Below, in pieces: positions 1,681 to 6,686 of a stretch of DNA of 64,000 nucleotides. Location of the stretch: the NCBI RefSeq assembly GCF_025353065.1, contig NZ_JANXRJ010000123.1, positions 1 through 64,000 of the forward strand, read 5' to 3'. This DNA is from Lapillicoccus sp. GTDB taxonomy: Bacteria > Actinomycetota > Actinomycetes > Actinomycetales > Dermatophilaceae. The notes under the pieces were generated by a model. The model did not search any database and was not told the DNA's origin. It worked only from the letters and a program-made list of their open reading frames with translations. Each line of letters opens with the position of its first letter. Position 1 is the first letter of the stretch. The position numbers and the translations under genes are program-made.

Positions 1681-4600
1681 TCAGGCGTAGACGTCCGCGA
1701 CGTAGCGGCTGTGCTCCCGCTGCATCTCGATCATCCACGCATCGGCCCGCTCGGCCGTCGCGCCGGTCGCCTCGATGTAGATGCGGGTGCAGGTGTCGTA
1801 GACCGCCGGGGCCATCCGCTGACCGTCCCCGCAGACGAAGAAGATCGCCCCGGCACGGACGAGGTCGATCACCTCGGCGCGGTCGGCCCACAGCCGGTCC
1901 TGGACGAACGTCACGCCGTCGGCGGGGGTGACGGAGAACGCCGGCCGCACCGCGACGAGGCCCTGCTCCGCCCACTCGTCGAGCTCGTCGCGGTAGAGGA
2001 AGTCGACGTCGGGCTGGTCGCAGCCAAAGAACAGCAGGGCCGGCGCCGGAGTGACTCCCTGCTCCTGGGCCGCCAGCGCGCGGTCCTGCAGGAAGCCGCG
2101 GAACGGCGCGATCCCGGTGCCCGCGCACACCATCACGACCGGCGTGGCGAGCGACTGCGGCGGGTGGAACGCGACGTTCGACGGTCGCACGGTCACCGCG
2201 ACCTTCGTCCCCGGACGCGCGCGGGCGAGATAGGTCGAGGCCGCGCCCTCGTAGGTGCCGGAGCCCGACAGCGCCGGAGCGGTCAGCACCGAGACGGTGA
2301 GGGTGACGTGGTCGGTGCTCCACCTCGGCGAGGAGGAGATCGAGTACTGACGGGGGGTCAGGGGGGTGAGCATCTGCAGGAAGGTCCCGAACGCCAATTG
2401 GCATGCGGGATAACGCTCGAGGAGGTCGAGCACCGTGATCCGCGGGGTCAGGATCTCGTCGGTGTATGCCGCGGGGTCACCGGCGAGGGCGGCCAGGGCC
2501 GCCTTGTCGGGCGGGCACACCGTGGCGTCGGCGAGCAGCTCGAGCTGCTTGCGGGTGGCGGGCAGGGACAGCTCGACGTAACTGGCCAGCAGCTCGCCCG
2601 CGGTCACCGGCGTGTCGGTGGGCAGGAACGTGTGGCCGCCCTCGCTGATGCGGATCACGGTCTGGGCGTCGTACGCGAGGTCGAACCGGCTGAGGGCGCG
2701 ATCCACGGCCAGCGTCGGGTTGAGCGGCAGGACCGCGAGATAGTCCCCCGTCTCGTAGGTCATGCCGTCGGGGAGGGCGATCTCCAGGTGACGCTTGGAC
2801 CGGGCGCCCGAGGCGTCCATGTCCACCAGCTCACGGTTGGCCACGACCGCGCCCAGCTGCAGGTGGTTCTGGCGCAGGATCGGGTCCCGGGTCGCCCCGA
2901 CGAACTCGACCTCGAGCAGCGGGGTCGGCGCCGGGACCTCGTCGTCCTGGCCCAGCGCGGTGGTGACCGGTCCCCAGAACCCGGAGTACCAGTCGTCGAA
3001 GTCGCCGAAGAAGTCGCCGCGGGCGTTGGCCGCACCGCGGTCGACCAGGCGGGTGGCCCCGGCGCGGGCGAGGTGCTCGTCGATCGCGGTGGGGACGGCC
3101 TGGTAGGTGCGGGCCCAGTCCGTGTTGCCGCAGCCGAACACGGCATACCGCACTCCCTCGAGCGCGCCCTCGGGCAGCTCGCTCACCCAGGCGAGGAACT
3201 GGCGGGCGTTGTCCGGCGGCTTCCCCTCGTAGGAGGAGCAGACCACGATGACGGCGCCGTCGGTCGGGAGGGGACCCGCCGTGCTGTCGAGGGTGTCGAC
3301 GCTGGGGGTGTAGCCGCGCTGCTTCGCGTCTTGGCGATCCGCTCGGCGAAGGCCTGCGAGGTGCCCGCGTTGGAGCCGAAAAGCACGCGGAGGGGGATCC
3401 CGTTCGCGGCGGCCGCTGCGACCTGCCGACCGCCGGACTGCTTGGCGGCTTCGGGCGCCGAGACGATCGTGGTGTCGCGGCGTCGCGCTCTCATGTAGAG
3501 CTCGTCCGGCTTGATCGTCAGGGTCTGCTTGATCTTCAGCTGGTAGTCCGGGTCGACGGGGCTGAGATCGAAGCGCTGCAACAGCATCGCGAGGAACACG
3601 ACCGCCTCCTGCAGGGCGAACCCACGCCCGATGCACGACCGCTGACCGTTACCGAAGGGCTTCCAGGCGTTGGGCGGCAGCGCCTGGGCGCGGTCGAAGG
3701 CGAACCGGTCGGGGTCGAACGAGTCGGCGTCATCGCCCCATACGGCAGGGTCGCGGTGCAGCGCCGGTATGACGACGAGGAGCGCCTGCCCGGCGTCGAT
3801 GGCGAAGCGGCCACCGATGACGGTGTCCTCGTAGGGCGTCAAGGAGAAGGCGGGCGCGGTGGGCCACAGCCGCAGGGACTCCTTGAGGACCTGGTCGAGG
3901 TAGGTCAGGTCGGCGAGGTCGGAGAACTGGGGGGCGCGCTCGCCGAGCACCTCGTCGACGTGCGCGCGGGCCTTGGCCAGCAGCTCGGGGTGACGCAGCA
4001 GCTCGTAGAGCGTGAAGGTCAGCAGCCCGCTGGTGGTCTCGTGCCCAGCGATCAGGAAGGTCACCATCTGGTAGCGGAGGTTCTCGTCCGAGAGTCGTTC
4101 TCCGGTCTGGGGATCGGTGGCCGTGAGCATCGTGTCGAGGATGTCGTGCTGACCCTCGGGCAGCGGGTGGCGTCGGCGGTCGGCGATCAGCTGGTCGGCG
4201 ACGTCGTACATCACCCGCTTGTCTTCGTCGTACTGGTGACGCGTCTTCAGCATCAGCCGGGTCTGCAGCGGCAGCCGCTGCCCGCGCGCCCTGGACTCGA
4301 TCAGGGTGCGGGTCATCGAGCCGACGAAGGGGTGGGTCTGCTCGGAGTACATGCTGTTGAAGCGATAGGAGAACGAGCACAGGGCGATCGTGTCCAGGGT
4401 CAGCCGCGTCGCGTCGCCGCCGATGTCGATGGAGTGCTCGGGGCCCTGTCGCTCCCACTTCAACAGCAGCTGGTCGGCGATGTCGATCATCCCGTCGAAC
4501 ATCCCGTGCAGGGCTGCCGGTCCGAAGGCGGGCATCAGGATCCGGTGTGCCGCGCCCCAGTTCGGCTCGTCGGTGTCGGCCGTGAACAGCCCGTCACCGG

Positions 4601-4871
4601 CGAAGTCGCGCACCTGCAGGAGCGCGCGGTTCAGCTTCTTGTCGAACCGGGTCTCGTCGCACAGCTCGTTGACCAGCTCCTGGGAGGTGACGATCAGCAG
4701 GTTGTTGCCGAGGACCTCCAGCCGGAAGAGGGGGCCGTACTCCTTCGCCAGCTCCGCGAGCCCGAACACGCCCTTGTCCTGGTCGACGTCATTGAGGTTG
4801 CCCACGATGGGTCGCGGCTTGGGCTGGGGAATCGGTTGCAGGACGGGGAGTGGGCATGTGCGTACCTTCAT
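1681..4871 (-). pseudogene. Self-sufficient cytochrome P450-reductase fusion (CYP102/P450-BM3-like), frameshifted at the start of the flavodoxin domain
   Basis: P450 half in ORF 3183..5864 (FLIAGHETTSGLL, ESLRLWPTAPAFSL, PFGNGQRSCIGRGFAL) from ATG at 4871; FMN/FAD/NADPH reductase half in another frame, ORF 1681..3636 (SSYEGKPPDNARQF, RQYSISSSP, CAGTGIAPFRGFLQDR); join at about 3330. Confidence 0.88.
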
Positions 4872-5014
4872 CGGGGAGCCGGGACCAGCAGTATCGGGTA
4901 ACAGGCTAGGTCGGCCACCTGAGGTCGGCGCGAGCAGGGTCGCGCCACACCGTCCCGATGGGCACACCCCCACCGAGCTCCTCCCCCTCACGAACGGGTA
5001 GCGGTGCCCGGGCT

Positions 5015-5479
5015 CTAGACGGCGGAGTCTGCGACGACCGCCTTGGCCCGGGTGACACCGACCAGGCTGACGACCATCAGAACGGCTTCGACGACGAGGC
5101 TGATGAGGCCGAGCGGCTCGGTCCAGTTGCCCCGGTCGTCGGCGTAGTCGGGCAGGCCCGGGCCACGCGACAGGCAGTAGCCGACGATCGGCACGAGCCC
5201 GGCGAGGAAGGCGACCGCCCAGACCATGACCGAGTTTCGGGTCCGGGGGGCGAGCAGGAGGACGGCGACGATGACGGCGGAGATCTCGAGCAGGTAGTAG
5301 CCGATGCCGATGTCGCCCGGGTCCTTCGACCCGGGGACACCACCCTGGTCGATGAGGTGGATCGCGGCCACGCCCAGGCAGAGCACCGCTGCGATGGCGG
5401 CCAGGACGATGGGGACGTTCAGGGTTCGCGAGCTGGCGAGACCGGGGGGGGCCATGGTGCGGTCGGGACGCGAGGACAT
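5015..5479 (-). CDS. Small multi-pass membrane protein
   Basis: 155 codons; RBS AAGGAG upstream of ATG; MSSRPDRTMAPPG... with about four hydrophobic segments. Confidence 0.7.
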   Translation of the reverse strand: MSSRPDRTMAPPGLASSRTLNVPIVLAAIAAVLCLGVAAIHLIDQGGVPGSKDPGDIGIGYYLLEISAVIVAVLLLAPRTRNSVMVWAVAFLAGLVPIVGYCLSRGPGLPDYADDRGNWTEPLGLISLVVEAVLMVVSLVGVTRAKAVVADSAV

Positions 5480-6101: not shown

Positions 6102-6686
6102 CTAGGCGTGCGCCGGACCCAGCGACTCGCGCAGGTGGATCAGGGCGTTGCGGATCCTCGTTCTGGAGGTGCCGAGCGGGATCTGCAGGATGTGCGCAAC
6201 CTCGGTATGCGTATGGCCACCGAAGTAGGCCAGCTCGAGCGCACGCCGCTGGACCGGGGTCAGCACGGCCAACGAGGTCCGCACCCGCGCCGCCTGCAAC
6301 GACCCGGGCGACGCCTCCGCGATGACGTCGGCCTCGAACCCCGAGCCGAGCTCCCGGTCCCGGGCGTCGCGCCGGCCGGACGCCTCGGGCGACCGGACCC
6401 GGTCCACGGCCCTGCGGTGCGCGATCGTCAGCATCCAGCCCAGAGCGCCACCGGAGGCTGCGTCGAATCCCCCTGCGGTGCGCCAGATCTCGAGGAACGC
6501 CTCCTGCGTCACCTCCTCGGCCTGGCCGCGGTCACGCACCACCCGCAGGACCAGCCCGAACACCCGTGACGCGTAGGCGTCGTAGAGCCTCGAGAAGGCG
6601 TCCCGGTCACCGCTCGAGACCTGAAGGAGAAGCTCTGCCGCCTGGGAGGACCCGGACAGCTGGTCGGGCGAGGGCGTCGGGATCAC
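6102..6686 (-). CDS. ECF RNA polymerase sigma factor (SigK-like)
   Basis: LLLQVSSGDRDAFSRLYDAYASRVFGL, EEVTQEAFLEIWR, LTPVQRRALELAYFGGHTHTEVA sigma2/sigma4 regions. Confidence 0.9.
   Translation of the reverse strand: MIPTPSPDQLSGSSQAAELLLQVSSGDRDAFSRLYDAYASRVFGLVLRVVRDRGQAEEVTQEAFLEIWRTAGGFDAASGGALGWMLTIAHRRAVDRVRSPEASGRRDARDRELGSGFEADVIAEASPGSLQAARVRTSLAVLTPVQRRALELAYFGGHTHTEVAHILQIPLGTSRTRIRNALIHLRESLGPAHA

Follow-up and report, generated by a model that had tools for sequence, protein, structure and literature searches.

CYP102A1 (P450 BM3) is the type member of the CYP102 family, whose genes encode a P450 heme domain, an FMN domain and an FAD/NADPH reductase in one chain. Among CYP102-type genes, those of Pseudonocardia kunmingensis, Pseudonocardia MH-G8 and Pseudonocardia acaciae are the closest to the gene described here, with 73–76% identity in both halves, and share a supported clade with it. 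They belong to another family, Pseudonocardiaceae, and unlike the gene described here each consists of one uninterrupted frame.

Domain layout of the CYP102-type gene

The window, that is, the whole stretch of 64,000 nucleotides that was analyzed, belongs to the 65,964-base contig C110, part of a draft genome (5.1 Mb, 343 contigs, 92% complete). Frames, domains and relatives together place the whole CYP102-type gene, with a single frameshift inside it, at 1681–4871 on the minus strand, and its domain order is that of BM3. The P450 heme domain (PF00067, 3507–4829) contains the I-helix motif AGHETT, the ExxR motif as ESLR, and the heme-ligand loop PFGNGQRSCIG. It is followed by the FMN phosphate-binding loop GSNAGTS (3357–3377, residues 499–505 of protein P0001), the remaining flavodoxin (FMN) domain (PF00258 positions 22–130, 3019–3324), the FAD-binding domain (PF00667, 2230–2859), and the NAD(P)H-binding domain (PF00175, 1801–2133), all on the minus strand. 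A motif check thus finds the P450 heme domain with its cysteine ligand loop, AGxxT and ExxR, and the three Pfam domains C-terminal to it constitute an FMN plus FAD/NADPH diflavin reductase of the CPR type. Both halves match bifunctional P450/NADPH-P450 reductases of solved structure (PDB entries 8dme, 8dmg and 9wuc), BM3 chains among them, over their full length. The BM3-like identity proposed in the first-pass annotation is therefore well founded, and we consider this an ordinary CYP102/BM3-family gene rather than a novel enzyme type. It retains the heme-ligand, I-helix and ExxR motifs and the FMN loop, but unlike BM3 it is one base short inside the FMN domain. The domains do not lie in one reading frame, and the sequence identifies the gene as a broken CYP102 member that, as written, would encode no fusion.

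The substrate-binding residues point to one further difference. In the column that we equate with BM3 Arg47, the gene has Asn (motif NNLLI, heme residues 56–60, 4692–4706, minus strand), and 37 of 68 relatives have Arg. Because Asn replaces Arg in this column, the gene may lack BM3's substrate-carboxylate anchor, and a preference for fatty acids, whose NADPH-driven subterminal hydroxylation characterizes CYP102 enzymes, should not be assumed.

The 5' end of the gene is ambiguous. The ATG at 4871 shares the frame of the heme half, but its Shine-Dalgarno match is weak (−2.7 kcal/mol). A second ATG, 14 bases downstream at 4857, is preceded by GAAGG and has a better match (−4.2 kcal/mol), and its leader, MPTPRPA..., would equal the leader of the relatives in length. 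This ATG is in the reductase frame, where a stop follows after 22 codons (4789–4871 region, minus strand), and it may belong to a short upstream reading frame or else hint at a second one-base lesion near the start. The heme segment assigned by a codon-model Viterbi segmentation, trained on the window's own genome, starts only at 4808. A further one-base lesion may lie near 4836, but good codon usage is absent from both frames there, which makes the evidence for it weak.

Position of the frame switch

The heme frame (codon starts with remainder 2 modulo 3) runs without interruption from the ATG at 4871 to a stop codon at 3183–3185 on the minus strand, which closes a truncated P450 product of 562 amino acids. 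The reductase frame (remainder 0) is likewise uninterrupted from a GTG at 3636 to a stop at 1681–1683. By frame-specific GC3, the heme frame (about 0.9 or more) gives way to the reductase frame (0.94 or more), with the crossover at approximately 3315–3330, and the Viterbi segmentation places the switch at 3330/3331. The frameshift and its site agree with the first-pass annotation; its placement of the break between the heme and reductase domains does not hold. The break falls within the flavodoxin domain, after GSNAGTSQAFAERIA and past the phosphate loop. The loop GSNAGTS and the following helix (to ...AERIA) are in the heme frame, and the remaining flavodoxin is in the reductase frame, the second half matching the Pfam flavodoxin model only from model position 22. 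Because the split falls inside the FMN domain, neither product contains a whole flavodoxin.

At the frameshift site (3328–3335, minus strand) the sequence reads GCC AA GAC, with only the two bases AA between GCC and GAC. Relatives were collected from 84,980 species genomes plus the window's own family. In 83 loci with both halves (a few being the same gene reached via two collections) a single frame continues through the junction, with no stop and with a complete codon in place of the window's two bases. This in-frame codon means that one base is missing from the window gene, as had been proposed. The choice of G as the lost base, which would restore a Lys codon, is no better supported than other bases. 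Among 62 relatives the junction codon encodes Asn (19), Ser (12), Asp (8), Ala, Thr and others, with Lys found once; in the closest relatives it is Asn. Since the residue varies among relatives, they single out no one base as the lost one.

We considered a break recurring in relatives and rejected it. Three relatives are discontinuous. The CYP102 gene of Pseudonocardia sp. CNS-004 has two apparent frameshifts, at 6300 and 6545 of its own locus (L021), and one of them follows the position of the window's break by only about five codons; its surroundings contain many other frame switches, so that this stretch is apparently indel-rich, and its breaks are likely assembly errors. The second relative (L055) has a gap of Ns, and the third (L092) is broken elsewhere, later in the reductase. 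A literature search for a CYP102 gene with a frameshift found nothing relevant.

Age and nature of the lesion

Neither half of the gene shows decay. Among near-invariant columns, defined as those at least 97% conserved among relatives, none of 134 is changed in the heme half and one of 91 in the reductase half, in agreement with the earlier description of the halves as otherwise full-length with key motifs intact. The dN/dS ratio (Nei-Gojobori, against Pseudonocardiaceae genes) is approximately 0.3–0.4 in both halves, similar to that of intact pairs, and the terminal branch of the window gene (0.22) is not one of the long branches of the tree. Because the conserved columns are intact, the dN/dS ratio is as in intact relatives and the branch is unremarkable, the lesion is either very recent in the lineage or present in the assembly only, which bears out the earlier wording that it is recent or an error.

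The strongest alternative to a real mutation is a sequencing or assembly error, in which case the organism's gene would be intact and an ordinary CYP102 fusion would be made. Its chance of being right is appreciable, somewhat below even. The assembly is a draft, the absence of decay in both halves fits an error, and the apparent breaks of the CNS-004 gene, in an indel-rich-looking contig, indicate that such errors do enter public genomes. However, in a sample of 246 kb of the own assembly, window included, the same codon model found only one other frameshift candidate besides the window gene, and the gene in question is interrupted by an in-frame stop as well. This gene (L142:920–1820, contig C150) resembles an alpha/beta hydrolase by eye; with a TAG in frame near 1064 and a frame switch near 1505, it is probably a true pseudogene. 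The remaining same-strand frame changes in the 246 kb look like ordinary junctions of close or overlapping genes. With one other candidate and the rest resembling gene junctions, the assembly is not indel-rich; moreover, no homopolymer at the frameshift site is longer than two. On these two grounds, the sequence data slightly favor a real recent deletion over an error.

Other readings fare much worse. It is very improbable that the strain keeps the split and uses a free P450, for which another reductase, or peroxide, would stand in, whether or not low-level recoding also yields the full fusion. Programmed −1 ribosomal frameshifting, which would join the frames so that the gene yields a short P450 alongside the full fusion, deserves even less credence: a −1 shift is indeed what is required and conservation extends to both frames, but the slippery heptamer X XXY YYZ is absent at the switch (ATC GCC AAG ACG), the RNA downstream has no unusual structure (z of −0.90), and the 83 relatives are plain in-frame fusions. 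The idea that two proteins are truly made, a free P450 and a reductase that each have a start of their own, can be dismissed with similar assurance despite the two long open frames, because the break cuts the FMN domain in two, parting the phosphate loop from the remainder, and the reductase has no plausible start. The first-pass annotation had named a separate reductase start with a ribosome-binding site as the observation that would refute its reading; near the break, the reductase frame offers no starts other than unsuitable GTG codons. The GTG at 3636 would first produce a nonsense leader of about 100 out-of-frame residues, and the GTG at 3246 and further GTGs downstream lie inside the flavodoxin, which would then have no FMN phosphate loop. 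A promoter and terminator scan of 3000–5100 found none, so that a promoter-like site for such a reductase is absent as well.

Thus, we hold with a probability of roughly 0.93 that this is a CYP102-family gene, encoding a P450, an FMN domain and an FAD/NADPH reductase in one chain, that was probably horizontally acquired and has one base lost in the FMN domain.

Origin of the gene and fate of its product

The nearest genes are found in Pseudonocardiaceae, with up to 76% overall identity, and the window gene falls in a seven-row clade, with support of 97, together with genes of Pseudonocardia and Saccharopolyspora. Within the window's own family, heme-half identity to homologues does not exceed 63%. 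A search of 396 genomes across the order added a single relative, whose frame is open and whose identity is 65%. The gene is absent from both genus mates sampled. The position of the nearest genes in Pseudonocardiaceae and the lack of the gene in both genus mates suggest that it was likely acquired horizontally.

Adjoining the P450 gene, at 5015–5479 on the minus strand, is a predicted protein of 154 amino acids with no Pfam match. The DNA here has a counterpart of 78% identity in genus mate G001, itself without the P450, so the neighborhood belongs to the genus. A GGDEF-EAL protein at 1–1258 on the plus strand is cut by the contig edge; contig C339 of this genome carries a second copy, 81% identical.

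As written, the gene would yield a truncated P450 of 562 residues and no working reductase, and loss of a single base in the FMN domain would thereby inactivate the fusion enzyme. Beyond annotation, where automatic pipelines will call two genes or a pseudogene, the importance of the lesion is small. A working enzyme is better sourced from the intact Pseudonocardia relatives. If the mutation is real, the strain carries a CYP102, probably of horizontal origin, that has only just been broken.
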